Positions 3,266 to 27,112 of a stretch of DNA of 64,000 bases are shown in pieces (position 1 is the stretch's first letter; every line of letters starts with the position of its first letter). Source of the DNA: Deltaproteobacteria bacterium. Lineage in GTDB: Bacteria; UBA10199; JADFYH01. The position numbers and the translations under genes are program-made. The stretch covers positions 1 through 64,000 of the forward strand of contig JADFYH010000008.1 in assembly GCA_015233135.1 (NCBI GenBank), in the 5' to 3' direction. The notes under the pieces are model-generated. The model searched no databases, had not been told where the DNA came from, and saw only the letters and a program-made list of their open reading frames with translations.

Positions 3266-3328
3266 AAGCCTCGCTGTTAATTTTGTAATTCGTATTATGC
3301 AACTCACCTTACACGATATCCCAGTCAT

Positions 3329-3369: not shown

Positions 3370-3415
3370 AATGAAAATCGCGTAACAGGAGTTAGATAGT
3401 ATTTTTAGGTCCACC

Positions 3416-4846: not shown

Positions 4847-4854
4847 AAATTCCT

Positions 4855-5893: not shown

Positions 5894-5914
5894 GTTGGAA
5901 AATGTCTATTTTTT

Positions 5915-5998
5915 GCCGGTGTGGCGGAATTGGCAGACGCGCACGACTCAAAATCGTGTAAGCGCAAGCTTGTGTCGGTTCGACCCCGACCACCGGCA
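5915..5998 (+). tRNA. tRNA-Leu (anticodon CAA)
   Basis: Acceptor arm GCCGGTG (5915-5921) pairs with CACCGGC (5991-5997), discriminator A at 5998. The anticodon stem CACGA/TCGTG encloses loop CTCAAAA, giving anticodon CAA (reads UUG). A long variable arm (AAGCGCAAGCTT region) and the GGTTCGACCC T-arm fit a class II leucine tRNA of 84 bases. CCA is not encoded. It is the attachment site of the integrative element that follows. Confidence 0.95.
5978..5994 (+). other. attL-like sequence in the tRNA-Leu T arm/acceptor
   Basis: GTTCGACCCCGACCACC in the tRNA matches 7690-7706 at 15 of 17 positions. The pair brackets the integrase, as expected for target-site duplication of a tRNA-integrating element. 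Confidence 0.6.
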
Positions 5999-6034
5999 TT
6001 TTTAAATAGTCCAATAGAGTTCAAAGAAGTCTTT

Positions 6035-6060
6035 AAGCCCACGTAAATGTGGGCTTTTTC
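6035..6060 (+). terminator. rho-independent terminator after tRNA-Leu
   Basis: AAGCCCAC (6035-6042) pairs with GTGGGCTT (6049-6056) across a 6-base loop and runs into a T tract. It lies between the tRNA and the integrase. Confidence 0.85.
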
Positions 6061-6113
6061 TTTATTTCTTGTCCAAGATCATCCGAGAGAATTTATTGAC
6101 ATCCAATAGTTTG

Positions 6114-6163
6114 TGGGGGCAACAGTGGGGGCAACAAAAGATTATAAAAATGAGTTGCCCCCA
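6114..6163. promoter_or_regulatory. left integrase arm-type sites
   Basis: TGGGGGCAAC occurs at 6114-6123 and 6126-6135 (12-base spacing) and inverted at 6154-6163, directly before the integrase start. The same word recurs at the other end of the element (7616-7637) with identical spacing. This is the expected arrangement of integrase arm-binding sites. Confidence 0.6.
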
Positions 6164-6164
6164 A

Positions 6165-7370
6165 ATGTCACTCAACGATGTTAAAATTCGAAACGCCAAA
6201 CCTAGCTCTAAAACCACCAAACTCTTTGATGAAAGAGGACTTTACCTCGAAATTTCCCCAAATGGAGGCAAGTGGTGGCGCCTAAAATATAGATTTGGTG
6301 GAAAAGAAAAACGCCTCTCTTTTGGCGTTTATCCCGATGTCAGTTTAAAGGATGCTCGAGAAAAACGAGAGGAAGCTCGGAAGCTTTTGGCTAAAGAGGC
6401 TGACCCCAGTGAAAATCGAAAAGCTATAAAATCGACAAAGGCAAACCTCGCCGCAAATACCTTTGAAGTGATAACGCGAGAATGGTGTGCAAAGAATTCT
6501 TCGATATGGACGGAACTCTACAGCAGTCGCCTTATACAGCAATTTGAAAAAGATGTTTTTCCATGGATAGGGAGCCGTCCCATTACTGAAATTAATGCAC
6601 CTTTATTACTGACTGTGCTCCGTCGAATCGAAGATCGCGGTGTGGGTTATACTGCACACCGAGTATTGCAAAATTGTGGACAGGTTTTCCGATATGCCGT
6701 CGTGACTGGAAGAGTTGATCGTGATCCTTCGGGCGATTTGAAAGGAGCTCTTTCTCCTGTAAAAGAACGTCATTTCTCTGCGATTACAGAACCAAAAGCC
6801 ATTGGGGAACTTCTACGAGCTATAGATGGCTATGAAGGTTATTTTGTAACCAAGTGCGCGTTACGTTTGGCTCCTTTGATGTTTCTACGCCCAGGTGAAC
6901 TTCGCAATGCAGAATGGACTGAAATCAATCTTGAAAAAGCGGAATGGAATATCCCTGCTGCTCGTATGAAAATGCGAGAACCTCATCTTGTTCCGTTATC
7001 GCGGCAAGCCATAGAAATTCTACAGAAACTGCAGTCGTTAACTGGTCACGGACGCTATGTTTTTCCGGGAGTAAGAACGAATAGCAGGCCAATGAGCAAT
7101 AATGCGGTGTTGGCAGCGCTGCGTCGTATGGAGTTCCTTAAAGAAGAGATGTGCGGACATGGTTTCCGGGCAATGGCTAGAACAGTTTTAGATGAAGTGT
7201 TAGGCGTTCGCCCTGATTTTATTGAGCATCAATTGGCTCATGCTGTTCGTGATCCTAACGGCCGTGCTTACAATCGCACAGCGCACTTAGCAGAACGAAA
7301 AAAGATGATGCAGCAATGGGCGGATTATTTTACGCTTACATCTCCCAGGGCTTATGGACAAAGCCTGTAA
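6165..7370 (+). CDS. tyrosine site-specific integrase, P4/CP4-57 type (DUF4102 arm-binding domain)
   Basis: ATG 6165 gives MSLNDVKIRNAKP, the normal N-terminus of this family; upstream in-frame codons (TTG 6069, ATG 6150) would add an atypical extension through the arm sites. Order: arm-type DNA-binding domain (about 1-90), SAM-like core-binding domain (about 100-185), catalytic domain (about 200-390) with the Arg in FLRPGELRNAEW, HGFRAMART and a late IEHQLAHAV..YNR segment that holds the final His and Tyr. It recombines the element into the 3' end of tRNA-Leu. The last residues (SPRAYGQSL) look out of place: downstream DNA encodes an alpA fragment in another frame, so the 3' end seems to be a deletion junction. 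Probably still catalytically complete. Confidence 0.9.
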   Translation: MSLNDVKIRNAKPSSKTTKLFDERGLYLEISPNGGKWWRLKYRFGGKEKRLSFGVYPDVSLKDAREKREEARKLLAKEADPSENRKAIKSTKANLAANTFEVITREWCAKNSSIWTELYSSRLIQQFEKDVFPWIGSRPITEINAPLLLTVLRRIEDRGVGYTAHRVLQNCGQVFRYAVVTGRVDRDPSGDLKGALSPVKERHFSAITEPKAIGELLRAIDGYEGYFVTKCALRLAPLMFLRPGELRNAEWTEINLEKAEWNIPAARMKMREPHLVPLSRQAIEILQKLQSLTGHGRYVFPGVRTNSRPMSNNAVLAALRRMEFLKEEMCGHGFRAMARTVLDEVLGVRPDFIEHQLAHAVRDPNGRAYNRTAHLAERKKMMQQWADYFTLTSPRAYGQSL

Positions 7371-9353: not shown

Positions 9354-9459
9354 GTAGGGGCGGTGCCTCCGTGCCCGCCCGCACTTTGATGTACTTTGGA
9401 ATTCTGCAAATCCAATTGAAAAGCCATATTGCGGGCGGGCACGGAGGCACCGCCCCTAC
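9354..9459. repeat. family A hairpin repeat, copy 1
   Basis: Perfect 30-base inverted arms at 9354-9383 and 9430-9459 (GTAGGGGCGGTGCCTCCGTG... and complement) around a 46-base AT-rich loop. Two more copies are at 21820 and 35979. It lies between the two lipoprotein genes and may also stop transcription. Confidence 0.9.
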
Positions 9460-12309: not shown

Positions 12310-13515
12310 ATGGAAAATTCCGATCCCAAAAATTCTGAAACTGTCTTGAATCCTTCGGCCGTTTACCCCCCCTACGCCTGGCCACCCCCTTATGCCTACG
12401 CACCGGAAGAAGAGATCAATTTGCTCGATTGCTGGAAGGTCATTTGTAAGCGCCTGGTTTTTATTTTTATCTTTTGTTTTTTATGTATTTTAGCGGCCTT
12501 ATTTTACGTGCAGTACACGGCTAAAACTTACAAGGTGCAGGCTACGCTGGCCCCGCTTTCTTCTTCCTCCGGGGGTGGATTGAGCGGATTGGCCTCGCAA
12601 TTGGGTTCGCTGCCTTTTGTGGGGGGGCAATTGGGGGGCCTGGCAGGCGGGGTGAGTAAGGGGGGGCAGCTCATTAATATCATGAAGAGTCGCAGTTTTC
12701 TCGAAAAAGTGATTCATGATTTTGATCTGCTGAAGGTGTTATTTCCCAAGGCATGGGAAAAAAGCGGAGATGCCAAGAAACCCAATCTTGAAGCGGCCTT
12801 CACAGAGCTACAGACCAAATTGCTTAGCGTTGAAGAAGATAAAAAAACAAGTTTAGTAAATATTTCACTGCAAATGGAAGACCCTGTGCTGGCGACAGCG
12901 ATAGTGAATCGAATGATCTTTGAACTTCAGGAGACCTTGAATAGCAAGGAACTGACGGATGCTCGTCACAATCGCGTGTTTATTGAGGGGCAGCTGCAAA
13001 AGAGTAAGATTGAATTGTTGGAGCTGGGAAAAAAGTTGAATCAGTTTTATGGTTCAGGGAGGGTGTCGAGTATTAGTCCTCAAGTAGATGTCGATATTGG
13101 AAAAATGCCTGACAGTTCTTCAAAAAGCTTTGAGGAGTTGCAAGTGGATTTGCAGGGCTTGGAGGGTCAGAAAAAAGATTTGGAAGCCAAAATGCAAGAC
13201 AATGAAAAAGAGGGAATTGTTCACAATGTGCCTTCTCAAATTTATCTGCAATATCTCACTTTGCAGCGGGAGTTGTTGGGCAGAGTTTATGGCTTGCTTT
13301 CACAACAGTATGAAATGGCAAAGGTCGAGGAAGCCAAGAACGATTTACGTTTTCAAGTGATCGATCCGGCCTATCCTCCGGTGAAGTACGACAAGCCGCA
13401 AAAAGTAATTGTGCTAGGGGTTAGCGCGGTGGGCTCTTTTTTTCTGGCGATTTTTCTGGCCTTCTTTTTGGAGTTTGTGGGGAGGCAGAAGGAAGAAGTT
13501 AGAAGTGAGAAGTAA
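12310..13515 (+). CDS. Wzz/GumC-type polysaccharide co-polymerase
   Basis: 401 residues. A Pro-rich cytosolic start, EEINLLDCWKVICKRLVFIF opening the Wzz domain, a first membrane segment near 50-75, a large periplasmic coiled-coil region (about 90-350) and a second membrane helix near 360-385 preceded by the Pro-rich PAYPPVKYDKPQK that marks the family. It controls chain length and couples to the SLBB exporter upstream. No Tyr-kinase domain follows. The extreme 3' end overlaps the convergent SDR gene by 17 bases. Confidence 0.8.
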   Translation: MENSDPKNSETVLNPSAVYPPYAWPPPYAYAPEEEINLLDCWKVICKRLVFIFIFCFLCILAALFYVQYTAKTYKVQATLAPLSSSSGGGLSGLASQLGSLPFVGGQLGGLAGGVSKGGQLINIMKSRSFLEKVIHDFDLLKVLFPKAWEKSGDAKKPNLEAAFTELQTKLLSVEEDKKTSLVNISLQMEDPVLATAIVNRMIFELQETLNSKELTDARHNRVFIEGQLQKSKIELLELGKKLNQFYGSGRVSSISPQVDVDIGKMPDSSSKSFEELQVDLQGLEGQKKDLEAKMQDNEKEGIVHNVPSQIYLQYLTLQRELLGRVYGLLSQQYEMAKVEEAKNDLRFQVIDPAYPPVKYDKPQKVIVLGVSAVGSFFLAIFLAFFLEFVGRQKEEVRSEK

Positions 13516-14491
13516 GAAGCGAACGATAATTATAAAATGCCAGACACTCCTTCAACCCATCCTCTAATTTTATTTTAGGTTCCCATCCCAATTCCCGATT
13601 CAATTTCTCATAGCCACATACCCAGGATTTTATTTTCATTTCCTTCAATTTCTCACGGCCAAAAATTTGAGGTTTTTTTCTGAGTTTTGACACGAAATCT
13701 GAGGCAAAGGCAGCGCTATAAAAAAACAGGGTTGGGACGGGAAAGTTCAATATTTTTTTGTTCATCACCCGTCCAATCGCTTCAAAAAATTCCCTCCAAT
13801 TTAAACTGTGCCCATCATCCAAACAATAAATGTCCGATTTCTTTGGCCTTCCCAAAAGGGTGAGGACGGCGTCTGCGACATCTTTTGCGTGGCAGAGGGA
13901 GAAACGATTTTTCCCATCTCCATAAAAGGGGGCAAGCCATTTTGCCGCGAGTTTGAAGGCGGGTAACAATTCAAGATCCCCCGGGCCATAAAGCACGGGA
14001 GGTCTCAGAATGCTGAGTTGCATTTTTCTCTTGAGAATCTGCAAGGTCTCTTCAGCGGCGAGTTTGCTTTGACCATAAAAACTCAAGGGATGACACTTGG
14101 CAGCGGGGATACAGAAATTGCGTCCATCTATTTCGGGATTCATCACCGCCAGGGTGGAAATATGCAGGAAGTGTTTGGGGGGATTTTTTAAGTTTAAAAG
14201 GAGCTGGGCTAGTTTTTCTGTGCCCTTTGCATTAACCTCAAAAAAGGTCTCTCGGCTTAAGGCCTTCACGAGGCCTGCACAGTGAACTAGCGCAGCACAT
14301 TTTTCTAGAATAGAAGCATCAAAATCACATTCGGGGAGACTGCCTTCAACCAATTGAATTTTGGGATGCTGAAGATGATCCCGCCTGGATTTTTTTCGGA
14401 CTAGAACCACCAGTTCATAGCCATCTTGAAGCAGGGCCTGGCTGATGTAAGAACCTAGAAATCCAGAGGCACCGGTGAGGAAGATTTTCAT
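13499..14491 (-). CDS. NAD(P)-dependent epimerase/reductase of the extended SDR type, candidate ceramide pathway reductase
   Basis: 330 residues. Rossmann motif TGASGFLGS at 7-15, catalytic Tyr/Lys in YGQSK and HISTLAV upstream: an extended SDR. In bacteria with ceramides an SDR of this atypical type (CerR of Caulobacter) reduces 3-oxo-sphinganine intermediates. The link rests on order: the next genes on this strand are a GNAT acyltransferase and a serine palmitoyltransferase-like enzyme. Other possible roles are sugar-nucleotide epimerisation or hopanoid/sterol-type reduction. Separated from the GNAT gene by a repeat of about 90 bases. Confidence 0.7.
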   Translation of the reverse strand: MKIFLTGASGFLGSYISQALLQDGYELVVLVRKKSRRDHLQHPKIQLVEGSLPECDFDASILEKCAALVHCAGLVKALSRETFFEVNAKGTEKLAQLLLNLKNPPKHFLHISTLAVMNPEIDGRNFCIPAAKCHPLSFYGQSKLAAEETLQILKRKMQLSILRPPVLYGPGDLELLPAFKLAAKWLAPFYGDGKNRFSLCHAKDVADAVLTLLGRPKKSDIYCLDDGHSLNWREFFEAIGRVMNKKILNFPVPTLFFYSAAFASDFVSKLRKKPQIFGREKLKEMKIKSWVCGYEKLNRELGWEPKIKLEDGLKECLAFYNYRSLLTSHF

Positions 14492-14625: not shown

Positions 14626-15765
14626 TCAAGATGACACCAATTGTTTTTCATACACCCTCAGCGTCTTATACTTTTTACCCCCCATAAATTCAATGCCGGT
14701 ATTAATTTTTTCATTGTCTTCCAGGGTCCAGGAAAGTTCACCCCATTGATAACCTCGTGCCAAACCGCGTCGATGAATTTCCACATAGAGCAAGACACTG
14801 AGTCCTCCCAAGACAGAACCCCGATATTCATTTTTGATTCCCAACAGGAGGAGTCGGGCGGACTTGTATTTTCGCTGCTTGATTCTCCAAAGCAGTTTGA
14901 AAATTCCCAGGGGGAATAAACGCCCCTTTAACCCTTGAATCAATTCGTACAGATTGGGAACACAAAGACACATGGCGGCGGGTTTGCCGTCTACTTCGGC
15001 AATGAGGGCCATTTCAGGATCTATGAATAATTTTAGATCGGCTGCGGATTTTTCTACTTCTTTGGGGGTGAGAGGGACAAAACCCCAATTTTTATTCCAG
15101 GCCGAATTAAAAATATCCAGGATGATTTCCAGATCCTTCTGGAAATGCTTCTTATCCAAATGTCGAATTTTTAAACCCGGGTATTTGCCTACTTCCGCGG
15201 CAATTTGGGTAGGGGCTTCCGGGACTTCCGTGGCCGGGTAATACCAGCAGAAGAGATCTTTTGCCTTTTGATATCCGGCTTGCTGGAGCAGCGAAGCATA
15301 ATAATCAAAATTATAGGGAATCATCGTCATTTGAGGCTGATCAAAACCCTCCACCAGCAAACCTGTCTCTTCATTGATTGAAAAACTGAAAGGCCCTAAT
15401 ATTTTTTTTGCCCCTTCCTGTTTTACCCAATCTTCTGCTGCCTTCAGCAAGGCTTGAGCGATTGCCGGATCATTTTCAGACTCAAAAAAACCAAAATGGC
15501 CGACTCGCTCTTTGTGAAATTTTTCATATTCAAAATCAATTTGGGCGGAAATTCTTCCGACTACTTTTTCTTCTTTTTTGGCAATAAAAAGTTGTACCTT
15601 GGCGTGCTCAAAAAATGGATTTTTTTTGGGATTTAATAAATCCCTTCGTTCTTGATAGAGCGGGGCTACCCAAGAGGCTGTGTTGCTATAGAGACGGTAG
15701 GGAAGTTCGATGAATTCTTGAAGTTGTTTGGGGGTTTGGACTGGCTGGATAGTGAGTAGAGACAT
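14626..15765 (-). CDS. GNAT-fold acyltransferase, candidate bacterial ceramide synthase
   Basis: 379 residues. It opens with ELPYRLYSNTASWVAPLYQE, then NPFFEHAKVQLFIAKKEEKV and VGRISAQID, the beginning of a large GNAT-like fold, and has a second GNAT-like half (about 200-370). Proteins of this shape are commonly encoded beside bacterial serine palmitoyltransferase, and one (Caulobacter bCerS) N-acylates the long-chain base. Its place between the SDR and Spt-like genes supports that role here. The acyl donor is unknown; no acyl carrier protein gene is seen nearby. A generic N-acetyltransferase role cannot be excluded. Confidence 0.65.
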   Translation of the reverse strand: MSLLTIQPVQTPKQLQEFIELPYRLYSNTASWVAPLYQERRDLLNPKKNPFFEHAKVQLFIAKKEEKVVGRISAQIDFEYEKFHKERVGHFGFFESENDPAIAQALLKAAEDWVKQEGAKKILGPFSFSINEETGLLVEGFDQPQMTMIPYNFDYYASLLQQAGYQKAKDLFCWYYPATEVPEAPTQIAAEVGKYPGLKIRHLDKKHFQKDLEIILDIFNSAWNKNWGFVPLTPKEVEKSAADLKLFIDPEMALIAEVDGKPAAMCLCVPNLYELIQGLKGRLFPLGIFKLLWRIKQRKYKSARLLLLGIKNEYRGSVLGGLSVLLYVEIHRRGLARGYQWGELSWTLEDNEKINTGIEFMGGKKYKTLRVYEKQLVSS

Positions 15766-15878: not shown

Positions 15879-17123
15879 TTAAATCAATTCCAACTTTTTC
15901 CCTACTTTATGAAACTTGTCCAAGGCAAAACTTAAATGATCTTTGGTGTGGGTCGACATCGTGGAAACCCTCAGCATGGCTTTGTCTTTTCCTACTGCAG
16001 GGTACAAAATAGGATTCACATAAACGCCTTCTTCGAGCAATTCTTTCCAAAGCAGCATGGTGTAAAGGTCGTTGCCAATATGCACAGGGACAATTGGGGT
16101 TTCGGTATTCCCTACCTTCCAACCCATGGCACTCAAGCCTTGGACGATGCTTTGTGCATTTTTGGCGGCTTGTAGTACCCGTTCAGGTTCTGCCCGTAAA
16201 ATTTTAAGGGATTCGCTGGCGGCGGCCAAATTAGCGGGGGTAATGGAGGCGGAAAAAATCATCGAACGGCCAAAGTGTTTGATATAGTCGATGACTTCAA
16301 AATCACCGGCCACACAGCCTCCTGTGGAGGCAAGGGATTTGGAGAAAGTGGCCATGATCAAATCCACTTCTTTACTCAATCCAAAATGCCCGGCCGTGCC
16401 TTCACCGCGTTTACCTAAAATTCCCAATCCATGGGCATCATCTATCAAGAGCCTGGCATTATGCTTTTTGGCGAGGGCAAGCATTTTAGGAAGAGGCGTG
16501 ATATCTCCTTCCATGCTGAAGACTCCATCAATGGCAATCAGCTTTGCCTGGTGCTTCGGGGCCGCCTGTAAAAGCCGTTCTAAATCTTCCGGATTATTGT
16601 GTTTAAAATAGTGGGTGTTGCATCCTGCCATCTTCACAGCGTCTTGCAGACTTGCGTGGTTGAGCTTATCCAGGAAAGCCGAGGTGTTTTCATTCGCCAA
16701 AGCGCTAATGATTCCGATATTGACCTGATAGCCTGTGGTGAAGACCAGGGCAGCTTCTTTTCCTAAAAAATCGGCGATCTCTCGTTCGAAGGTCTCATGA
16801 ATTTCCAAGGTACCATTGAGAAGTCGTGAGCCTGTGGCACTTGTCCCATATTTTCGTATCGCATCGATAGCGGCTTCCCGCACCCTGGGGTCTGTGGTGA
16901 GTCCGAGATAGTTGTTCGACCCCAGCATGATTACTTTCTTCCCTTTGATAATGGCTTCGGAACCCAGATTGCATTCCAAGGCCTGAAAGTAAGGGTACAT
17001 GCCCATTTCACGGACGGAGCCGACAATTTTTTGAAATTCTTTAGTCTTGCTAAAGACATCGCTGTCGCTAGTGTTTTCCAGGTGATGGCGATCGGAAATC
17101 AATTGATCTAATGCGTTGTTCAT
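15879..17123 (-). CDS. spt: serine palmitoyltransferase-like alpha-oxoamine synthase
   Basis: A 415-residue PLP enzyme. The start at ATG 17123 is preceded by AAGGTGG; the longer frame from 17183 has no such site. Family signs: MLGSNNYLGLTTDPRV, YGTSATGSRLLNGT, LDKLNHASLQDAV, DDAHGLGILG, and the PLP-lysine segment TFSKSLASTGGCVAGD. The TFSKS form with GGC/GGF following is the Spt pattern; BioF and Kbl normally have GTLGKA. It would condense serine (or another amino acid) with a fatty acyl thioester to start sphingoid base synthesis. It leads a leftward run with the GNAT and SDR genes. It is divergent from the glycosyltransferase at 17157 with only 33 bases between. Confidence 0.85.
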   Translation of the reverse strand: MNNALDQLISDRHHLENTSDSDVFSKTKEFQKIVGSVREMGMYPYFQALECNLGSEAIIKGKKVIMLGSNNYLGLTTDPRVREAAIDAIRKYGTSATGSRLLNGTLEIHETFEREIADFLGKEAALVFTTGYQVNIGIISALANENTSAFLDKLNHASLQDAVKMAGCNTHYFKHNNPEDLERLLQAAPKHQAKLIAIDGVFSMEGDITPLPKMLALAKKHNARLLIDDAHGLGILGKRGEGTAGHFGLSKEVDLIMATFSKSLASTGGCVAGDFEVIDYIKHFGRSMIFSASITPANLAAASESLKILRAEPERVLQAAKNAQSIVQGLSAMGWKVGNTETPIVPVHIGNDLYTMLLWKELLEEGVYVNPILYPAVGKDKAMLRVSTMSTHTKDHLSFALDKFHKVGKKLELI

Positions 17124-17156
17124 ATCCACCTTAAAAAGAGAAGTAAAGGAAGCCTG

Positions 17157-18173
17157 ATGACATTTTCCAAAAGAATCTGTCAATGTTTGTTTATGGGATT
17201 GGCTCCCAGGTTTTTGATCCTTGACTTTAAGGGGGGCTTAGATAAGAAAGCCGCGGTGAATCTCCTGACTCAAAATTTCAAGGGTTTTCCTTCGTTAGAA
17301 GATCCAATCTCAAAATCCTGGGTGGGGCAGAGTTCACAACGCCCACAAATCTCTATTATCATTCCGGCCTTTAATGAGGCGCGTTATCTGAAAAAATGTT
17401 TGGATTCTGTCTTACGTCAGGAGACAGACATCCCCTATGAAGTGATTGTGGTGGATAACCATAGCCAGGATGCAACTCCTCAGATTGCCCTCCAACAGGG
17501 AGTGCGACTGGTGCAGGAGTCTCATCGAGGTCTCACCCATGCCCGTGAAGCGGGCTATCGTGCAGCTCGAGCTCCGCTTTTAGCTTATGTGGATGCAGAC
17601 TCTATTGTCCCTTATCATTGGGTTGATGCGATCTACGAAGCTTTTCAACAAAGACCTGAAGCGATTGCCTTGTGTGGCTCCTTCCGCTACGTCCTCAAAT
17701 CGACGTTGCATCGTTTTATCTTTTCACTTTATTTTCATATGGTAGAGCCTGTGGCCGATTTCTTTTTGAAAGGGCAGCGCCTGGCGGGTGGAAATTTTGC
17801 TGTGCGAAAAGAAGCCCTCCAGAAAATTGGGGGTTTTAATCTGGAAATAGAATTTTACGGAGAAGACATGGAGCTGGCTTCCCGCCTGAAAAAAGTGGGA
17901 GCTATTGTTCCTATGGGAGCCCGTATATTATCTTCGGGGCGACGATTCGATAAAAAAGGGATTGTCATCCCCGGTTTTATTTATCTCTTCAACTACCTCT
18001 GGCTCTTTATCTTTAAAAAACCCATTTTTTCTTTTTACGATGTGGCCGAAGAGGATGTTAGCTATAGCCATGCCAGTGACCAGGATGTTTCTTCGGAGAC
18101 CCTCACACTTGAGGGGCATCCGGCAGAGGAAGTTTTACCCCAAGTTCCCTCTCCCTTGATGGGAGAGGGTTAG
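17157..18173 (+). CDS. glycosyltransferase family 2
   Basis: 338 residues. After a 60-residue N-terminal extension comes the GT-A fold: ISIIIPAFNEARYLKKCLDS, VIVVDNHSQDAT, the DxD motif in AYVDADS, and GGNFAVRKEAL..GGFN..GEDMELASRL. A hydrophobic C-terminal stretch (about 262-290) suggests membrane contact. It transfers a sugar from a nucleotide donor to an unknown, perhaps lipid, acceptor. It begins a rightward run of genes with overlaps. The C-terminus (PSPLMGEG) and stop codon are encoded by a family C repeat. AAAGGAAG precedes the chosen ATG. Confidence 0.8.
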   Translation: MTFSKRICQCLFMGLAPRFLILDFKGGLDKKAAVNLLTQNFKGFPSLEDPISKSWVGQSSQRPQISIIIPAFNEARYLKKCLDSVLRQETDIPYEVIVVDNHSQDATPQIALQQGVRLVQESHRGLTHAREAGYRAARAPLLAYVDADSIVPYHWVDAIYEAFQQRPEAIALCGSFRYVLKSTLHRFIFSLYFHMVEPVADFFLKGQRLAGGNFAVRKEALQKIGGFNLEIEFYGEDMELASRLKKVGAIVPMGARILSSGRRFDKKGIVIPGFIYLFNYLWLFIFKKPIFSFYDVAEEDVSYSHASDQDVSSETLTLEGHPAEEVLPQVPSPLMGEG

Positions 18174-18183
18174 GGAGAGGGTG
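18145..18183. repeat. family C repeat spanning a stop and the next start
   Basis: TTCCCTCTCCCTTGATGGGA.. then GAGAGGGTTAGGGAGAGGGTG. TAG at 18171-18173 ends the GT2 gene, and the terminal GTG (18181-18183) is the start of the deacetylase with GGGAGAGG just before it. Confidence 0.8.
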
Positions 18184-18834
18184 AAAAGTCAAAAAGGGAC
18201 TTCCGTGCGTGTCTTTAAAAAGCTTAGTCTTGGCGGAAAAAAAATTGCCCTCACTTTTGATGATGGTCCGGATTCTACTCATACCCTTTCCTTGCTTCGT
18301 TTTCTTGAAACCCAAAATGTCCCGGCCTGCTTCTTTTTAATTGCAGAAAAGGTGGCTCGATATGCCGAAATCAGTCTGGAAATTCACAAGAGGGGTTTTG
18401 AGATTGGCAATCACAGTGCTTCCCATCGCTGGGGCACGGCCTTTTCCCCCTTCATTTTAAGGCAAGAGCTTGAAGCCTCCGAGATCATATTCCGAAAAAT
18501 TTTTCGTAAAACCCCTCGCTTGTATCGACCTCCCCGAGGGATTTTGTTTCCCTGGATGAAAACGGTCTTGGCCCAGTCTCACTACGACTTGGTTTACTGG
18601 ACGGAGATGCCAGGAGATTATTGGCCCTGGCATTCCCCAGACAGCATCCGCCAAAAATTGCTTTCTTCTGTTCAAGAAAAATCGATTTGGACCTTTCACG
18701 ATGGTTTGAATTTGTGGGGGCAGGGAAAGGGTTTTGCCCTGGATCTGCTGCGGGAATTGATTCCCTATTATCAGGATCAGGGTTATGAGTTTGTGAGTTT
18801 GAGAGAGGGCTTGGAGGTGGAGGTTTATCGATGA
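18181..18834 (+). CDS. NodB-type polysaccharide deacetylase
   Basis: 217 residues from a GTG start located at the edge of a repeat. All five NodB motifs are visible: TFDDGPD (metal/catalytic Asp pair), HSASHRW (metal His pair), RPPRG, DYWPW and a C-terminal FHDG. It hydrolyses N-acetyl (or other acyl) groups from sugars. There is no signal peptide, so it probably acts in the cytosol on a lipid-linked or nucleotide-linked sugar, like ArnD-type members. It overlaps the GT4 gene by 4 bases. Confidence 0.85.
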   Translation: MKSQKGTSVRVFKKLSLGGKKIALTFDDGPDSTHTLSLLRFLETQNVPACFFLIAEKVARYAEISLEIHKRGFEIGNHSASHRWGTAFSPFILRQELEASEIIFRKIFRKTPRLYRPPRGILFPWMKTVLAQSHYDLVYWTEMPGDYWPWHSPDSIRQKLLSSVQEKSIWTFHDGLNLWGQGKGFALDLLRELIPYYQDQGYEFVSLREGLEVEVYR

Positions 18835-19976
18835 AAACCATCACCATCGTCGCCAACGAGCCCTACCACTCACTCTCCGGAGGCATCCCCCGTTTTCTGC
18901 AAGAAATTGGACCGCGTTTGTCCCGTTTTCTGAATGTGCAAATGGCAGTGATTGGCAACTCCAGAAAAATGAGTATCGAAACCCTGAATCCTCATTTTAC
19001 GCTTTATCATTTTCCTCATTATGCCCTGCCGGTGGGAGACAGTTACCCTCCTCGTTTTTTGAAAAAAGAAATGAAAGCACTCATTCAAGGTAGCGATGTG
19101 GTTTTTGTGCAAACCGTCGATTGTTTTATTCCTCTTTATTACTGTAAAAAATTCAAGAAACCCCTGCTCATGTATTTTCATGGCATCGATTGGGAAACCT
19201 TTCCGCGCGCCCTGGGTTTCCCTTGGCTTGCAAAAAAAATTGTTCCTCTGGTGAAGTCCTATGCGCGCTATTGGTATAATCGCTGTTCTTGTTTGCTTGT
19301 TCCTTCTGCGACGCTTGTTCCCGTCTTGGAGCAGGCCAAAATAGTGTCGCCAAAACATATCCTTCCTTTGGGTGTGGATGCTCAGCAATTTCGGCCTTCT
19401 TTGAATTCCTGCTATTGCAAAGAAAGAATAGGTCTGCAAGAAAGTGATTTGGTGCTGGGTTACACCGGAAGACTGGCCCGCGAAAAAAACATCGATTTTT
19501 TATTGAATGTTTTTGAGCGGCTTCAAAAAGAATTTTCCGCTCTTAAACTTTTACTCGTGGGAAGTGGGGTAAAAGATTTTGAAGCTAAAATTCGGCAAAA
19601 CCCTGCAGTCCTAGCGGTGGGCCAAAAAAATGAGGTGCTGCCTTATCTACAGGCCATGGATGTTTTTGTGATGCCTTCCCAAACTGAAACGAGCTCTCTT
19701 TCTACCATGGAAGCGATGGCATCAGGTCTTCCGATTATTGCCTTTGATGTAGGTTGCTTACGAGACTATGTCCAGAATGGGCAAAATGGATATTTGGTTC
19801 CTTTGGGGAATGAAGAAGATTTTTATTCCAAAATTCGCCATTTGCTGCAAGAGAAGGAGCTCCGACAAAATATTGGAAGAGAGGCTCGCCAGGGTATGGA
19901 AGTTCGTTTCAACTGGGAGGATACAGTGCGTGAGCTTTATGAAGTCATCGAAAAAATAGTGTTCAAAGTAATATGA
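18831..19976 (+). CDS. glycosyltransferase family 4
   Basis: 381 residues with a GT-B fold: Gly-rich N-terminal donor/acceptor loop (SLSGGIPRFLQE), LGYTGRLAREKNIDFLL at the start of the C-terminal domain, LLLVGSG, and the EX7E motif in ETSSLSTMEAM. It belongs to the broad group that includes PimA and PIG-A, which glycosylate phosphatidylinositol, but the donor and acceptor cannot be fixed here. Its neighbours (AUR1-like PAP2, PIG-L deacetylase) make a GlcNAc transfer onto an inositol lipid an attractive guess. Overlaps both neighbours by 4 bases. Confidence 0.8.
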   Translation: MKTITIVANEPYHSLSGGIPRFLQEIGPRLSRFLNVQMAVIGNSRKMSIETLNPHFTLYHFPHYALPVGDSYPPRFLKKEMKALIQGSDVVFVQTVDCFIPLYYCKKFKKPLLMYFHGIDWETFPRALGFPWLAKKIVPLVKSYARYWYNRCSCLLVPSATLVPVLEQAKIVSPKHILPLGVDAQQFRPSLNSCYCKERIGLQESDLVLGYTGRLAREKNIDFLLNVFERLQKEFSALKLLLVGSGVKDFEAKIRQNPAVLAVGQKNEVLPYLQAMDVFVMPSQTETSSLSTMEAMASGLPIIAFDVGCLRDYVQNGQNGYLVPLGNEEDFYSKIRHLLQEKELRQNIGREARQGMEVRFNWEDTVRELYEVIEKIVFKVI

Positions 19977-20938
19977 ATTTTTCATCACAACAGCCTGCAA
20001 GTCCTTTTTTTTCCTGGTTCAAGGTAAGCCTCGTTTTTGTTATTTTTTTGGCAGTCAATTTTATCATGGGAAATTTGCATTATCCCCATGTGCTTTTTAG
20101 TTCTGCTATTTTTATTTTGTTCGCTTTGCATCCTAACACCCGACTATTTCTTGTTTTAGCGATTCCCATTTTATTACAAAATGTTATTTTTGACTCTTTC
20201 CGTTTTGTGCCTTTTCATTGGTATTTGCCCATTCATGTTCGGGAACCTTATCTTTTTGATCAGTATTTCTTTTCGATTTTTTATCAGGGTCGAACTTATC
20301 TTCCCCATGAGTTTTTAATGCATTTCCAGCGACCTCTTTTGGATCTTATTTCGGGTGCGCTTTATAATGTGTTAGATCCCGTGGTCGTATTATTGGTGGT
20401 GCTGTTCTGGAAGATGAAAGATGAATATTTCGCCGCGCGCTACACCTCTGCTTTTTTGCTCATGAATTTCTTTGCCTTTGCCACTTATCTTTTTTACCCC
20501 GCCGCTGCCCCCTGGTATGTGTCCAAATATGGTTTTATTTCTCCTTTGATGCCCGTTCCCGGGAGCCCTGCTGGGCTTGCCCGCTTTGATCAACTTCTGG
20601 GTTTAGGGGTCTCCAAAGAGTTTTATTCCATGAGTCCTGTGGTGTTTGGTGCCCTGCCTTCTATGCATGCTGGTTTTACGATGCTGGGTTTTCTCTATTC
20701 CCTGAAGCTAGGTAAAAGATGGTCTATTCCCATAGGAATTTATAGTTTGGGGATGTGGTTATCGGCCTTGTATTTGGAGCATCATTATGTGATCGATATC
20801 CTCTTGGGTATTTTCTACGCCCTGATTGCCTACATTTTGATGGAAAAGTGTTTTGTAAAGGCCAATGCAAGCATATTGGATTTCCTCAATAAAATGCTTC
20901 TTTATCCCAAGGCACCCTGTTTGTTGGGTAAAAAATGA
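19973..20938 (+). CDS. PAP2-superfamily membrane enzyme of the AUR1 (inositol phosphorylceramide synthase) type
   Basis: 321 residues with about seven membrane helices. Phosphatase-like motifs: ALPSMHAGF (about 228-235) and EHHYVIDILLG (about 269-279), which give the catalytic His pair and Asp in the HHYxxD arrangement found in fungal AUR1 and related bacterial PAP2_3 proteins. Such enzymes move phosphoinositol (or another phospho-head group) from a phospholipid to ceramide. With ceramide genes 3-6 kb away and inositol-phosphate genes in the same window, an inositol phosphorylceramide synthase role is reasonable. It could instead be a plain lipid phosphatase. Confidence 0.75.
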   Translation: MNFSSQQPASPFFSWFKVSLVFVIFLAVNFIMGNLHYPHVLFSSAIFILFALHPNTRLFLVLAIPILLQNVIFDSFRFVPFHWYLPIHVREPYLFDQYFFSIFYQGRTYLPHEFLMHFQRPLLDLISGALYNVLDPVVVLLVVLFWKMKDEYFAARYTSAFLLMNFFAFATYLFYPAAAPWYVSKYGFISPLMPVPGSPAGLARFDQLLGLGVSKEFYSMSPVVFGALPSMHAGFTMLGFLYSLKLGKRWSIPIGIYSLGMWLSALYLEHHYVIDILLGIFYALIAYILMEKCFVKANASILDFLNKMLLYPKAPCLLGKK

Positions 20939-21774
20939 ATGAAGTTTTAATTATTTCCCCTCACTACGATGATGCGGTTTTTTCCTGTGGGGGAATTCTT
21001 TCCAATCCCTCTCAAGACTATCAATTCGAAGTTCTAAATGTGTTTTCGCATTCTGGGAGAAGAACCGCCCAAAGAAAAAAAGAAGAGGCAGCCGCCTCCG
21101 AATATTTAAATTATCAAAGTCATAGTCTCGGGTTTTCTGATTATGAACGACGAGATTTTTTTGGTTTTTTACCCTCTCGCATGCATCGATTTTTAGGTGC
21201 AGAAGATGAAGAGGTTTTCAAGAAAGTCGAAACCGCTTTTCTGGATTTTTTAAAAAATAAAAACTTTCACTCTCTCTATTTTCCACTGGGCATAGGAATG
21301 CATATCGACCACGAAATCTGTTTTCGCTTGGCGAAAAGTTTGTCGAAACAGAATTCCGGCGAGATTTATTTTTATGAGGATTTGCCTTATGCCTTGTTGC
21401 CAGGTTTGACTGAACTTCGTCTTTTCCAGCTTGGAATATCAAGTCCTGAATCTTTAGCTGGCTGGCAAGACATGGCTGATTTTCTCTATACCCGACCTTT
21501 CTGGAAGAGGCTTAAAATTTTTAAAAAAATACTCACTCCACTCATTAAAAACTTTTGGCAAAAACGGCTGCGTGTTCTAGGGCAGCTTCCATTGAAAGCG
21601 AAGTATTTTTATTTAGGGTATTCTCTTGAAATGAAAAACAAGGCGGCTTGTTTGTATGAGAGCCAAGTCAAAGATTTTTTTTCTTCACCGGAAGATTCCC
21701 TGGAGTGTTTTAAAAAATATTCAGAAAAAGTGGGAGTGGATTATCCCAGTGAGAGAGTGTGGCAGTTGCTTTAA
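20935..21774 (+). CDS. PIG-L/LmbE family deacetylase
   Basis: 279 residues. Zinc-site motifs ISPHYDDA (7-14) and MHIDH (122-126) are intact; the C-terminal part is family-variable. Relatives deacetylate GlcNAc-phosphatidylinositol (PIG-L), GlcNAc-inositol (MshB) or other GlcNAc conjugates. It overlaps the PAP2 gene by 4 bases and closes the tightly coupled part of the run. A second deacetylase (NodB type) in the same operon suggests two deacylation steps or two sugars. Confidence 0.8.
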   Translation: MNEVLIISPHYDDAVFSCGGILSNPSQDYQFEVLNVFSHSGRRTAQRKKEEAAASEYLNYQSHSLGFSDYERRDFFGFLPSRMHRFLGAEDEEVFKKVETAFLDFLKNKNFHSLYFPLGIGMHIDHEICFRLAKSLSKQNSGEIYFYEDLPYALLPGLTELRLFQLGISSPESLAGWQDMADFLYTRPFWKRLKIFKKILTPLIKNFWQKRLRVLGQLPLKAKYFYLGYSLEMKNKAACLYESQVKDFFSSPEDSLECFKKYSEKVGVDYPSERVWQLL

Positions 21775-21819
21775 TGATGCAGCTTGCGCGATTTTTTTAT
21801 GAAGTTTGATTGAATTTCT

Positions 21820-21924
21820 GTAGGGGCGGTGCCTCTGTGCCCGCCCGCACTTGGCTACATTTTGCTGCTATGAATTCCAATTGAAAAACCAAATTACGGG
21901 CGGGCACAGAGGCACCGCCCCTAC
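21820..21924. repeat. family A hairpin repeat, copy 2
   Basis: 30-base arms at 21820-21849 and 21895-21924 with one mismatch. It separates the PIG-L gene from the UPF0104 gene. Confidence 0.9.
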
Positions 21925-21955
21925 GAAAAAAAATATTGTGATTGCAATGGCATAA

Positions 21956-22927
21956 ATGAAAAGTACCTTTAAAAAATCACTTCCCTATTTTACTTTTCTG
22001 ATTTCCCTACTTCTGCTCGCCTTTTGTTTCCAAGAAATCTCCTGGCAAGAATTCCGACTTTCTCTGCAACAAATTTCCTGGAAGTTTTTGGCTTTCGCTT
22101 TTATTCCCCTTTTGTCTTTGGTGTTTGTCAAAAGCCTGCAGTGGAAATGTTTTTCCAAAGAGAAACGAGAGATTCCGTTTTCAAGTTTGTTTGAAGCCAT
22201 TTCCACCTGGTTGATGATGGTCAACCTACTTCCCTTCTGGATGGGAGAAGCGTTTCTGATTTATATTCTGGGCCAACGTTTCCAATTTGGAAAAACTTAT
22301 TCCACGTCCCTTCTTACTCTAGATCAAATCTTTGAAGGGCTTTCGTTGATGTGCATTTTTTCATTGTTGATTTTGGCTCATCAAATTCCAACTTGGATGC
22401 AAATCCCCATCCATGTTTTTTTTATAGGGATTTTCTTTTTTTATTTTCTGCTTTTGATTTTGGCCTATCGTTTTCGGCATTCCAAACGCTTGCTTCATGA
22501 AGAGATGAAATTGAAAAATCGAATGTTTCAGGTATTTAAAAACTGGGCGAGTGAACTTTCACTTCTTCATCGTTTGGGGCCTACTCTTTTCTCGCTTTTT
22601 TTTGCCCTCTGTATTAAAGCACTCGAATATTTCTCTCTCACTCTCTTGCAATGGGGTTTAGGTTTAACTCTTCCCTGGTGGGCTCCCCTACTGATTATTG
22701 CGGGGCTCAATTTGGCTTTGATGATTCCTATGGCGCCTGCCAATCTAGGGGTGTTTGAGGCCACGGTATTTTATTTATATCAAAATTTGGGAGTGCATTC
22801 GGGAGACTGTATGGTTTTGGCTTTAAGCTACCATGGCCTGTATTTAGCGGCTTTGGTGTTGCCGGGATATTTTGTGTTTGTAAAAAGAGGGTTTCGTTTG
22901 CCGGGGCCAAACAATGTTTTTAATTAA
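21956..22927 (+). CDS. flippase-like integral membrane protein (UPF0104 family)
   Basis: 323 residues, about eight membrane segments. SLVFVKSLQWKCF and MMVNLLPFWMGEAFLIYILG replace the NPGG region of close relatives, LLTLDQIFEG corresponds to the usual DR-containing helix, and APANLGVFEATV is the C-terminal signature. It is diverged from the copy at 2174. Its position after lipid-sugar genes and before an MMPL transporter suggests lipid movement across the inner membrane. The preceding hairpin may reduce transcription reading in from the PIG-L side. Confidence 0.7.
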   Translation: MKSTFKKSLPYFTFLISLLLLAFCFQEISWQEFRLSLQQISWKFLAFAFIPLLSLVFVKSLQWKCFSKEKREIPFSSLFEAISTWLMMVNLLPFWMGEAFLIYILGQRFQFGKTYSTSLLTLDQIFEGLSLMCIFSLLILAHQIPTWMQIPIHVFFIGIFFFYFLLLILAYRFRHSKRLLHEEMKLKNRMFQVFKNWASELSLLHRLGPTLFSLFFALCIKALEYFSLTLLQWGLGLTLPWWAPLLIIAGLNLALMIPMAPANLGVFEATVFYLYQNLGVHSGDCMVLALSYHGLYLAALVLPGYFVFVKRGFRLPGPNNVFN

Positions 22928-22946: not shown

Positions 22947-23044
22947 TTCCCCTCTCCCCTTGTGGGAGAGGGCTGGGTGAGGGGTATTCCGAGTGCACTC
23001 AAGATCACCCTCCCTCTGACTCCCTCCCCTCAAGGGAGGGAGGA
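22947..23044. repeat. family C repeat, double-arm copy 1
   Basis: CCCCTCTCCCCTTGTGGGAG.. and ..CCTCCCCTCAAGGGAGGGAGG arms around a GTGCAC-centred spacer. A second double-arm copy is at 51545. Nothing else is seen in this gap. Confidence 0.8.
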
Positions 23045-23099: not shown

Positions 23100-25541
23100 A
23101 TGGCCACCTTTCCAAAACTCTATCAACTCTCCGCCCTCCATCCCAAGCTGGTGCTGTTTATCGCCTTGACCCTCACGCTACTTTCCCTGTGGTTCTCTCA
23201 AAAGTTGCACATTGAAAGTGATTTTTCTTCACTCCTTCCTACTCAAACAGAAAGTCTTAAAAATATACACGAGTTGAAAAAATATTTTGGAAATTCTGGT
23301 TTCCTGTATGTCACCCTAGAAGATACCAAGGTCGGTACTGGCAAAAAGAATGCAGAAAGTTTTACCGATCAACTGCTGGGCCGCATCGAAAAAATGCCTC
23401 ATGTCAGTTTTGTGGATTATAAAAAGCCCGTCGATTTCTTTAAAAAAAGAATGTGGCTCTATCTTGATTTGGCAGATCTTCAAGAGATGGAAACCCGCGT
23501 CGACAAAGGTATGCAACTCGAAGCCAATGGCGTGAATCCCATGATGGGAAGATGGATGAGTTTTGCAGATCAAGCAGATCTTCCCGACCTGACTTTTCAG
23601 GATATTATCCAAAAATATGAAAAAAGAAGTGGGGTTCAATTTCAGGATAATTCCGCTCAGCAGCCTGGAGAAAACCCTTTTTCGGTTTTACGCATCAAGT
23701 TAGAACAAACCAAGCACAATCAGGAAACAATGGAGGGGCTTCTCTTTGCGATACGGCGCTCTGAAACGGAAATTAAAAAAGAGAAACCTCAATTTTCTTC
23801 GGTGGAGGTGAATTTTACCGGTGAGTACCAAACCGATTTAGAGCAAACCTCTCATGCCGAAAAAGAAATTCGTAAGTCTTCTTTCTTTGTCGTTTTTCTT
23901 TTGATTTTGGTTTTATTTCTCTATTTTCGTGATGTTAGCGGCATGTTCTTGGTGGGTGTCCCTTTGTTGATTGGTCTGCTCTGGACTGGAGGTTTGGTCT
24001 ATCTCTTCTTGGGTCACCTCAATATCATCACCGGCTTTGCGGGGGCTATTTTGGGAGGGCTGGGAAGCGACTACGGAATTTATCTACTTACCCGTTATTA
24101 TCAGGAACGCTCTTTAGGTAAAAGTTTCACGGAGGCCTTGGACCTTACTTTTTCCAGTGGAGGAACGGCTAAGGCGACTTATGCGTCGATGTTGACGACG
24201 GTCGTTTCCTTTTTGGCCCTTTTGTTTTCCAATTTTGGGATGTTTGTAGAGTTTGGTTTAGTAGGTGCCCTGGGTTTGGTTGCCAATTATGTGGCCATGA
24301 TTACCTTAATTCCTGCCTGTCTTTCCCTGAAGGCTGCAAAGGTTGCACGGAGTCAGGATTCTCGTTTACCTGGTGTCCAGGAGGATTCAAAAGCCCACCG
24401 TTTTATTGCGTTTCTTTGCAGACCCTACTTTCCGCGATTTGTTTTATTTCTCTTTTTTTTACTTTGCCTTTTTTCTTCTACCACCCTGAAAGAAAAATCG
24501 AAGATTTATTTTGAAGATGGAAACATGGAAGATCGCAATCTGCCGGCCACCCAGTTGTATAATAAGGTAAGCCAGATGATGCAGGCCTCCCTTTCCCCTA
24601 CCTTGCTGATGGTGAATGGAAAAGGGAATGAAGAAAAATTATTGGAGGCCTTACAGCATAAACTTAAAAGTGCGGCACCGGATACGCTGGTCTATAACGA
24701 TGTGGCCGGCCTCTCTACTTTTTTACCCAAAGATCAAAATGAAAAAAAAGAAATCTTGGTGCGCCTGGGTGAGAAATATAAACAGATCAATCTGTTCTGG
24801 AATAAAAAGAAGGAAAGTTTTTTGGAAAGTATTCAGGAGAGCCTGAATGTTAAATCGATTAGCCGGGAGGATATTCCCCCAGAAATTCGACGCATGTTTG
24901 AATCGCCCAAAGATCCGGATGTTTTTTTGATTTACTTATTTCCTGCTTTTGGCCGAGGGAATCTGGAAAACATGACCCGTTATTACGAAGGCGTTTTGAA
25001 TCTCAAAAAAGAAATCGCGGTTCCTTTCATTCAGGCCGATGGCTCTTTCATCGAGCATGACATTATCCAGCTGATACAAAAAGAGGCCCCTCGAGGTTTA
25101 TTCCTAATTCTGTTTTGTCTGGGTGGCATTCTGCTTTGGAGTGTAAGACCTTGGCCCCATGCCTTGGCCATTTTTACTTGCTTGGTGACTTCACTCATTC
25201 TTCTTTCGGCGGTTCTTACTTTTATGCATATTCGTTTAAACATTCTCAACATCGGGGTGTTTCCCATTATTTTGGGAACCGGAGTGAACTGTTTTATTCA
25301 TTTGGATCATCGCTTAAAAGAACTGAAAGATATGGATAAAACGCTAAAGAATTATCTCAGTACGATTCTTGTCTGTAATCTTACCACAATCATTGGTTTT
25401 TCGGCTTTACTGATTATCCCCAGCGAAGGCTTGCGCTCTGTGGGCTGGGTGGCGGTGTTGGGTTTGAGCCTTATTACTTTTGTGTGTGCCTTTGTGTTCC
25501 CGAGGTTTTTGGTGTTGAAAAGAGTGGGGACTTTGCGATGA
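23100..25541 (+). CDS. MMPL/RND-superfamily lipid transporter
   Basis: 813 residues. Two halves, each a periplasmic domain and a sterol-sensing-type membrane bundle. The first half holds the proton-relay pattern GGLGSDYGIYLLTRYYQE (about 319-336); in the second half the equivalent is GTGVNCFIHLDHRLKEL, where the Asp-Tyr pair is Asn-Cys. Overall architecture resembles HpnN and mycobacterial MMPL proteins, which carry lipids from the inner membrane outward. With the flippase-like gene before it, a role in exporting a sphingolipid or glycolipid is plausible. Overlaps the next gene by 4 bases. Confidence 0.8.
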   Translation: MATFPKLYQLSALHPKLVLFIALTLTLLSLWFSQKLHIESDFSSLLPTQTESLKNIHELKKYFGNSGFLYVTLEDTKVGTGKKNAESFTDQLLGRIEKMPHVSFVDYKKPVDFFKKRMWLYLDLADLQEMETRVDKGMQLEANGVNPMMGRWMSFADQADLPDLTFQDIIQKYEKRSGVQFQDNSAQQPGENPFSVLRIKLEQTKHNQETMEGLLFAIRRSETEIKKEKPQFSSVEVNFTGEYQTDLEQTSHAEKEIRKSSFFVVFLLILVLFLYFRDVSGMFLVGVPLLIGLLWTGGLVYLFLGHLNIITGFAGAILGGLGSDYGIYLLTRYYQERSLGKSFTEALDLTFSSGGTAKATYASMLTTVVSFLALLFSNFGMFVEFGLVGALGLVANYVAMITLIPACLSLKAAKVARSQDSRLPGVQEDSKAHRFIAFLCRPYFPRFVLFLFFLLCLFSSTTLKEKSKIYFEDGNMEDRNLPATQLYNKVSQMMQASLSPTLLMVNGKGNEEKLLEALQHKLKSAAPDTLVYNDVAGLSTFLPKDQNEKKEILVRLGEKYKQINLFWNKKKESFLESIQESLNVKSISREDIPPEIRRMFESPKDPDVFLIYLFPAFGRGNLENMTRYYEGVLNLKKEIAVPFIQADGSFIEHDIIQLIQKEAPRGLFLILFCLGGILLWSVRPWPHALAIFTCLVTSLILLSAVLTFMHIRLNILNIGVFPIILGTGVNCFIHLDHRLKELKDMDKTLKNYLSTILVCNLTTIIGFSALLIIPSEGLRSVGWVAVLGLSLITFVCAFVFPRFLVLKRVGTLR

Positions 25542-27112
25542 AAATTTCAAAAGAAGAGCTGCATCTGTTTTTGAAAGAAGGCGAAGGGCTCACCCTTGAA
25601 TTCAAAGAGAAGTTTCACTCTCGTATTGACGAAGACCTGGTCGCTTTTGCCAATTCCAGGGGGGGGTGTTTGTTATTGGGAGTTCGAGAGGATTCCTCTA
25701 TTGCAGGCGAAAAGTTAAGTAATTCTTTAAAAGCAAAAATTAATGATATTGCCCGAAATCTCAAACCTTCACTTCAGGTAGAAATTTGCGAAGTAGAAAC
25801 TGTGATTGTCATCCAGGTACCTGAAGGCACAGACAAACCTTATAGTTGTAGTTCTGGATATTACAAACGCCTGAACGGTAACACCCAGAAAATGAATCAC
25901 GAAGAAGTTCGTAGCATGTTTTGTGAAACGGACGTGATTCCCTTTGAAGAAAAAAAAACAAAAGGTTTTGGTGTAACGGATTTATCGCGAACTAAAATTA
26001 ACTCATTTGTTCAAGAAGCGGGGATTAGCATTGGGAAATCCTCCCCACTGAATTTTCTCAAAAGTTTGAAAGTTGCCGATTCGAAAGGAATTAAAAACGC
26101 GGCAGTCCTCTTTTTCGCAAAAAATGCAGGTGATTTTATCCCTCAATCTCAATTGGTCCTACTGGCTTTTAAAGGCGTTGAGAAACTGAATATCCTGGAT
26201 CGTCGCGATGTCCGGGATGATTTATTCACTCAATTTAATGAAGCGCTGCAGTTTATTAAAAAGCACTTAAATGTTCGTAGTGAAATTACTGGACTAGACC
26301 GAAAAGATCTTTACGAAATTCCGCTAGAAGCGCTTCGAGAAGCAGTAGTCAATGCTCTCATGCACCGGGACTACAGCATTAGAGGTAGCCAGGTGAGTAT
26401 TGAAATTTATGAAGATAGACTGGAAATTATCAACCCAGGCGGCTTGGCAGAAGGGCTGTCTCCCAAGGCTTTTGGCAATATTTCTGTCCGTAGAAACGAA
26501 TTGATTTCCGATCTTTTTTTTCGTCTCCACAAGGTGGAACGTATTGGGATGGGAGTTAAGAAAATAAAGGCCATTCTTGCTTTGGCAGGTCTCCGAGCCC
26601 CCAAGTTTGAGTTAGAAGGTTTATTTAAAATTATCCTTTTCCGCCCTAAAAAAACTACCCAGAAAACTACCCAGAAAACTACCCAGAAAATTTTGGAGCT
26701 GATTCAAGAAAATCCACAAATCACCCGTACTGAATTGGCCAAAAATATCGGCTTGAGCGAAGGTGGGGTTAAGTATTATTTAAGGAATCTGCAAAAGAAA
26801 GGTAACATTAATCGTGTGGGGGGAGATAAAGGAGGTATGTGGAGGGTGGTGTTGAATCCAATTTTTTCAACAGAAGATCTATTTAAACCTACCCTGTTTC
26901 AGTCAGACAAAACTACCCAGAAAACTACCCAGAAAACTACCCAGAAAATTTTGGAGCTGATTCAAGAAAATCCACGAATCACTCGAAGGCAAATGGCGGA
27001 AATGCTGGGTTTAAGTGAGGAGGGGGTGAAGTATCATTTAAAGCTACTGCAGACAAAAGGGAAGATTACGCGTTTGGGCTCGGACCGAGAAGGGGAGTGG
27101 AAGGTGCTATGA
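25538..27112 (+). CDS. AlbA_2/ATPase-type transcription regulator with duplicated winged-helix tail
   Basis: 524 residues from ATG 25538 (ATGA overlap with the transporter). N-terminal AlbA_2 domain (LTLEFKEKFHSRIDEDLVAF, GGCLLLGV), then a GHKL-like HATPase_c_4 domain (ALREAVVNALMHRDY, RLEIINPGGL, GIGMGVKKI). The C-terminus has two copies of a module: TTQK x3 linker followed by ILELIQENP and a winged helix (TRTELAKNIGLSEGGVKYYL). The modules are offset by exactly 258 bases, and their first 67 bases are identical while the rest has diverged. Family members are predicted regulators, often horizontally transferred. Target unknown. Confidence 0.8.
   Translation: MKISKEELHLFLKEGEGLTLEFKEKFHSRIDEDLVAFANSRGGCLLLGVREDSSIAGEKLSNSLKAKINDIARNLKPSLQVEICEVETVIVIQVPEGTDKPYSCSSGYYKRLNGNTQKMNHEEVRSMFCETDVIPFEEKKTKGFGVTDLSRTKINSFVQEAGISIGKSSPLNFLKSLKVADSKGIKNAAVLFFAKNAGDFIPQSQLVLLAFKGVEKLNILDRRDVRDDLFTQFNEALQFIKKHLNVRSEITGLDRKDLYEIPLEALREAVVNALMHRDYSIRGSQVSIEIYEDRLEIINPGGLAEGLSPKAFGNISVRRNELISDLFFRLHKVERIGMGVKKIKAILALAGLRAPKFELEGLFKIILFRPKKTTQKTTQKTTQKILELIQENPQITRTELAKNIGLSEGGVKYYLRNLQKKGNINRVGGDKGGMWRVVLNPIFSTEDLFKPTLFQSDKTTQKTTQKTTQKILELIQENPRITRRQMAEMLGLSEEGVKYHLKLLQTKGKITRLGSDREGEWKVL
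26651..27109 (+). repeat. tandem in-frame duplication (258-base period) in the AlbA_2 gene
   Basis: Units begin at 26651 and 26909. Each starts with three copies of AAAACTACCCAG and stays identical for 67 bases, then diverges. Confidence 0.9.

Follow-up and report, generated by a model that had tools for sequence, protein, structure and literature searches.

A candidate locus for an aminosugar-modified inositol-phosphoceramide in a deltaproteobacterial genome

Within 64,000 nucleotides of contig JADFYH010000008.1 from a Deltaproteobacteria bacterium (this whole stretch is called the window here), five genes on the plus strand (17157-21774) encode a GT2 glycosyltransferase, a NodB/CE4 polysaccharide deacetylase, a GT4 glycosyltransferase, an AUR1-like PAP2 protein and a PIG-L-family de-N-acetylase. 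Together with the genes around them they may form a locus which makes and exports an inositol sphingolipid with an amino-sugar head group, i.e. an aminosugar-modified inositol-phosphoceramide, and the chances for this reading are about even in our estimation. The steps leading to inositol phosphate, to ceramide and to phosphoinositol-ceramide are supported by sequence comparison. The identity of the sugars, their acceptor, the order of the steps and the export are what we infer, the addition of sugar to the lipid from the order of the genes.

That this is an inositol-sphingolipid locus is well supported by its sequences. The PAP2 protein (19973-20938; Pfam PAP2_3, 64 bits) matches the inositol-phosphorylceramide synthase AUR1 from yeast with an E value of 3.7e-17, including the stretch GSPxGLARxDxLLG, and its active-site residues H232, H271 and D275 are conserved across 14 homologues, which bears out its earlier description as AUR1-like. 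The model of the bacterial phosphoinositol (PI)-dihydroceramide synthase, NF052609, scores it with 167 bits, under a curated cut-off of 480 bits that is presumably a naming threshold set on the closer Bacteroidota relatives. For comparison 80 AUR1-like loci of other genomes, mostly metagenome-assembled genomes of Bacteroidota, were used. A relative (at least 100 bits) of serine palmitoyltransferase (Spt), CerS, CerR or myo-inositol-1-phosphate synthase (MIPS) lies nearby in 61 of them, and in 33 of the 37 loci with full flanks; chance would give far fewer, and the lipid class is settled by this. MIPS and Spt, which characterize the bacterial PI-dihydroceramide pathway, both occur in the genome and in the locus. 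A homologue of the GT4, NodB or PIG-L protein is found nearby in none of the 80 loci, and these genes are therefore the unusual part of the locus.

The preliminary description of the five genes was accurate as to reading frames, strand, position and families: GT2 (17157-18173; Glycos_transf_2, 100 bits), NodB (18181-18834; Polysacc_deac_1, 89 bits), the retaining GT4 enzyme, a predicted lipid-head-group N-acetylglucosamine (GlcNAc) transferase (18831-19976; Glyco_trans_1_4, 120 bits), the PAP2 protein and a divergent member of the PIG-L/LmbE family (20935-21774; PIG-L, 34 bits, cut-off 28). The junctions are 4-base overlaps or repeat-bridged, as had been noticed. ATGA overlaps join NodB to GT4 at 18831, GT4 to PAP2 at 19973 and PAP2 to PIG-L at 20935, and a gap of 7 nt beside a palindrome separates the GT2 stop (18173) from the GTG start of NodB (18181). 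Since ATGA overlaps are frequent within bacterial operons, they back co-expression and are uninformative on the chemistry. Co-transcription past PIG-L is uncertain because the gap between PIG-L and the following flippase gene contains an inverted repeat of 38 nt. Scans for sigma-70 promoters and terminators gave scores no better than those of shuffled sequence. The G+C content is 44% for the window and for GT4, 39% for PIG-L and 40% for the flippase gene, a weak hint at a different history of that end. The five-gene order, for which a search in other genomes had been suggested, was not met again in 45 other genomes of the class (searched with PIG-L), in 384 other genomes (with PIG-L and GT4) or in the 80 AUR1-like loci. 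The assembly of the source genome comprises 64 contigs.

The palindrome at the 3' end of the GT2 gene is dispersed. Its sequence, CCCTCTCCCTTGATGGGAGAGGG, has eight matches in the window against zero expected, among them 3342-3364, 18147-18169, 22950-22972, 39246-39268, 51547-51569 and 60719-60741, and it is translated as a C-terminal tail in GT2 (PSPLMGEG) and in the open reading frame 59207-60766 (PSPLEGEG). A second dispersed inverted repeat, GTAGGGGCGGTGCCTCTGTGCCCG, is intergenic and resembles miniature inverted-repeat transposable elements (five matches against zero expected; sites at 21815-21929, 9354-9459 and 36070-36093).

The GT4 protein retains its catalytic residues (R214, K219 and E286-x7-E294). 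Its best NCBIfam match is N-acetylglucosaminyl-phosphatidylglycerol (PG) synthase, with 140 bits against a cut-off of 480. By sequence BshA and PimB' are closer to it than PimA. The AF2 model (pLDDT 90.5) has sucrose-phosphate synthase, MshA, BshA and PimB' as its nearest folds; sucrose-phosphate synthase aside, the nearest are the UDP-GlcNAc enzymes MshA and BshA. The PIGA domain PF08288 was not reported in it at E values up to 10, and owing to this and the low PimA score a membership in the PIG-A/PimA group was rejected as unsupported. Only one close relative (about 37% identity) exists among the 384 other genomes. It is encoded in G031, where AUR1, RND and flippase genes follow directly. 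Both proteins form a lineage of their own (100/100) between the GpgS-like and the MshA-like groups in a tree which is unrooted and was made without PIG-A, PimA and O-antigen clades. The preliminary description had named a unique gene order and a GT4 within an O-antigen or capsule clade as speaking jointly against it; the order is indeed unique, and the GT4 was not placed in such a clade, these being unsampled in the tree.

By sequence and by fold the nearest PDB entry of the PIG-L protein is the teicoplanin (pseudoaglycone) deacetylase Orf2, and its fold neighbours are glycan N-deacetylases; the mean confidence of the model is 58, so that the core alone is usable. The metal and catalytic residues H10, D13 and H126 are kept. 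No match was found in the 45 other class genomes, and the 384 other genomes gave nine weak ones. No hydrophobic segment was found in PIG-L, GT4 or NodB. The genome encodes a further PIG-L deacetylase (L047:9257-9964), which sits in a NeuB-type sugar cluster. In NodB the CE4 motifs TFDDGP, HSASH, RPPRG and HDG are intact. The presence of two unrelated deacetylases, both of them confirmed, had been regarded as a puzzle. In G003 a fusion of GT2 and NodB (L036:5188-6684) lies beside CerS/Spt and RND/AUR1 genes, and for this reason each deacetylase probably belongs to its own transferase.

Upstream of the array, Spt (15879-17183, minus strand) is recognized by SerpalmtaseCFB with 476 bits and by the solved Spt structure with an E value of 3e-112. 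It is divergent from the array, and from the called TTG start the gene would share 27 nt with GT2; an in-frame internal ATG (MNNALDQL...) is the likelier start. To the earlier question whether Spt is always adjacent, the answer is that it often is, but not always. Among the class genomes with a strong AUR1-like match it adjoins the AUR1-like gene in the window, G027 and G003, lies on a separate contig in G031, G017 and G005, and is replaced as neighbour by MIPS in G001, G008 and G034. On the same strand as Spt follow a GNAT-type acyltransferase (14626-15765; Pfam GNAT, 30 bits) and an NAD-dependent epimerase-like protein (13499-14491; Epimerase, 106 bits), which we call bCerS-like and CerR-like due to their gene neighbourhood; relatives occur within 10 kb of the AUR1-like gene in 43 and in 42-45 of the 80 loci, respectively. 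Bacterial Spt, bCerS and CerR and the sequence in which they act have been described, with Spt and bCerS being cytoplasmic and CerR periplasmic in Caulobacter (PMC11087976).

For the inositol part, MIPS is encoded at 36121-37440 on the minus strand (inositol-3-phosphate synthase 7nwr, E value 8e-164; NAD_binding_5, 329 bits). A fusion of CTP:inositol-1-phosphate cytidylyltransferase and CDP-alcohol phosphotransferase is encoded at 3416-4846 on the plus strand (4mnd, E value 2.7e-49; NF041135, 255 bits) and contains the CDP-OH-P motif DGCDGEMSK...GEWLDTASD. A CDP-inositol route to inositol lipids was proposed in other bacteria (PMC9246714). The fusion gene belongs to a module (2174-5811) with an HpnL-like flippase (2174-3175, minus strand; LPG_synthase_TM, 120 bits) and a radical SAM gene, which is found whole or in part in G003, G037, G025 and G031. 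Downstream of the array, on the plus strand, lie a flippase-like LPG_synthase_TM/UPF0104 protein (21956-22927, 114 bits) and an HpnN-like MMPL/RND lipid exporter (23100-25541; HpnN, 210 bits, under the cut-off). The open reading frame 25484-27112 contains two TTQKTTQKTTQK repeats, each preceding a similar helix-turn-helix-like segment. At 5914-7370 a tRNA-Leu(caa) is followed by an integrase-like open reading frame, a probable integration site.

In the proposed pathway MIPS would provide inositol-1-phosphate, which the fusion protein would convert to CDP-inositol and further to an inositol phospholipid, while Spt and the bCerS-like and CerR-like enzymes would produce dihydroceramide, onto which the AUR1-like protein would move phosphoinositol. 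On the cytoplasmic side the inositol head group would receive an N-acetylhexosamine (HexNAc), probably GlcNAc, from the GT4, and PIG-L would strip off the acetyl group to leave a zwitterionic lipid; plausibly GT4 is a GlcNAc-transferase and PIG-L a de-N-acetylase, both acting on lipid. GT2 and NodB would add and deacetylate a second sugar, and the UPF0104-type flippase and the RND pump would carry the product outward. The model for the sugar steps is gpgSDF of P. aeruginosa, which makes GlcNAc-PG and then glucosaminyl-PG (GlcN-PG; PMC12713373). The window repeats a gpgSDF-like layout, except that AUR1 stands between the GT4 and the deacetylase, and it is on this basis that we propose an aminosugar-bearing inositol-phosphoceramide. 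The presence of MIPS and the CDP-inositol fusion in the same 64 kb speaks for it, as do the recurrence of GT4, PAP2, RND and flippase genes in G031 and of the fused GT2-NodB near CerS/Spt in G003, the gpgSDF-like arrays with an RND gene in G018 and G043 of the same class, and the nearest folds of GT4 (MshA and BshA, sucrose-phosphate synthase aside) and of PIG-L (glycan N-deacetylases).

Several points weigh against this proposal. The donor sugar and the acceptor of GT4, GT2, NodB and PIG-L are not fixed by their sequences, the AUR1, GT4 and Spt scores are all under the curated NCBIfam cut-offs, the full gene order is confined to the window, and no PIG-L is found near the GT4-AUR1 array of G031. 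Genes for polysaccharides are close: SLBB export at 11137, Wzz at 12310 and Wzi at 32610. Furthermore, the active site of yeast AUR1 faces the lumen while GT4 and PIG-L appear to be cytosolic, and the substrate of GT4 may therefore be an inositol phospholipid, ahead of the transfer. If the topology is the same here, glycosylation would precede the transfer to ceramide, an order like that of glycosylphosphatidylinositol (GPI) synthesis. On such a route, which we regard as rather unlikely, GT4 would place GlcNAc onto a phosphatidylinositol-type lipid in the cytosol and, once PIG-L has deacetylated it and the flippase has turned it over, AUR1 would move glucosaminyl-inositol-phosphate onto ceramide; that the product is a bacterial glucosaminyl inositol-phosphoceramide made in this way is equally doubtful.

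GT4, PIG-L, flippase and RND pump might also constitute a unit like gpgSDF for the synthesis and export of a glucosaminyl glycerophospholipid, e.g. GlcN-PG, with AUR1 merely co-transcribed. The best NCBIfam match of the GT4 fits this idea, and so do G018 and G043 of the same class, which contain GT4, DUF2334 deacetylase, flippase and RND genes in a gpgSDF-like layout; there the GlcNAc-PG synthase model reaches 199 and 239 bits with the GT4 proteins and the GlcNAc-PG deacetylase model 133 bits with the deacetylase of G018. However, the GT4 of the window falls far below the cut-off and outside the GpgS-like group, its deacetylase is not of the DUF2334 type, AUR1 shares 4-base overlaps with both neighbours, and the sole close GT4 relative has AUR1 directly after it as well, which leaves this explanation with a low probability. 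About one in five is also what we would grant a surface polysaccharide or lipid-carrier oligosaccharide built by the glycosyltransferases and deacetylases, the sphingolipid genes being neighbours by history. GT2 and CE4 are a common polysaccharide pair, and genes of capsule assembly flank the five genes at up to about 12 kb (SLBB export and Wzz on one side, Wzi on the other), but a non-exhaustive search near the five genes recognized neither Wzx nor Wzy nor an initiating transferase, and GT4 with AUR1, and GT2-NodB with Spt, are found again in other genomes. A sugar thiol made by GT4 and PIG-L as a BshA/BshB- or MshA/MshB-like pair is very improbable: bacillithiol and mycothiol are made by such pairs and MshA and BshA are fold neighbours, but the GT4 scores (BshA 103 of 274 bits, MshA 79 of 462) are under the cut-offs, it falls outside the MshA-like group, both genes are coupled to the membrane protein AUR1, and with the second PIG-L in the NeuB-type cluster bacillithiol synthesis was rejected.

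Most of the known bacterial inositol sphingolipids come from Bacteroidota, and no report of a deacetylated amino sugar on such a lipid was found in the literature searched. If the proposed aminosugar-modified inositol-phosphoceramide is real, bacteria would use components of their own to build glycosylated inositol ceramides, a counterpart to the glycolipids of plants and of the GPI type, and the gpgSDF logic, in which amino sugars change the charge of lipid head groups, would extend to sphingolipids.

The likeness to the first GPI steps noted earlier thus holds in part. As in eukaryotic GPI synthesis (PIG-A, PIG-L), a GT4 and a PIG-L-family de-N-acetylase with its metal triad, the latter agreeing at the family level only, stand beside inositol-lipid synthesis, and GlcNAc transfer and deacetylation are plausible next to an AUR1-like PAP2. 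The window differs by the missing PIGA domain, by other GPI-transferase subunits going unrecognized, by a PIG-L nearest to teicoplanin-type deacetylases and by the ceramide context; a literature search on bacterial origins of GPI found nothing. Ceramide lipids containing inositol are typical membrane lipids of fungi and plants. The proposed product would resemble the plant glycosyl inositol phosphoceramides in being a HexN- or HexNAc-bearing inositol-phosphoceramide; however, the plant lipids have glucuronic acid next to inositol, and the enzymes in the window are bacterial. With the inositol-lipid cluster BT_1522-1526 of Bacteroides thetaiotaomicron (PMC9246714) the locus shares MIPS, an AUR1-like PI-dihydroceramide synthase and Spt, to which it adds GT4, PIG-L, GT2 and NodB, and inositol is probably activated as CDP-inositol. 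With gpgSDF (PMC12713373), to which hexSDF of C. difficile is analogous, it shares the succession of GT4, deacetylase and UPF0104-type flippase. It differs by the inserted AUR1, the RND pump that follows, the sphingolipid context, PIG-L and CE4 deacetylases in place of a DUF2334/COG3233 protein, and a GT4 of a separate deep lineage. Of the two, gpgSDF is the known system that comes nearer to the locus in its logic than GPI synthesis.

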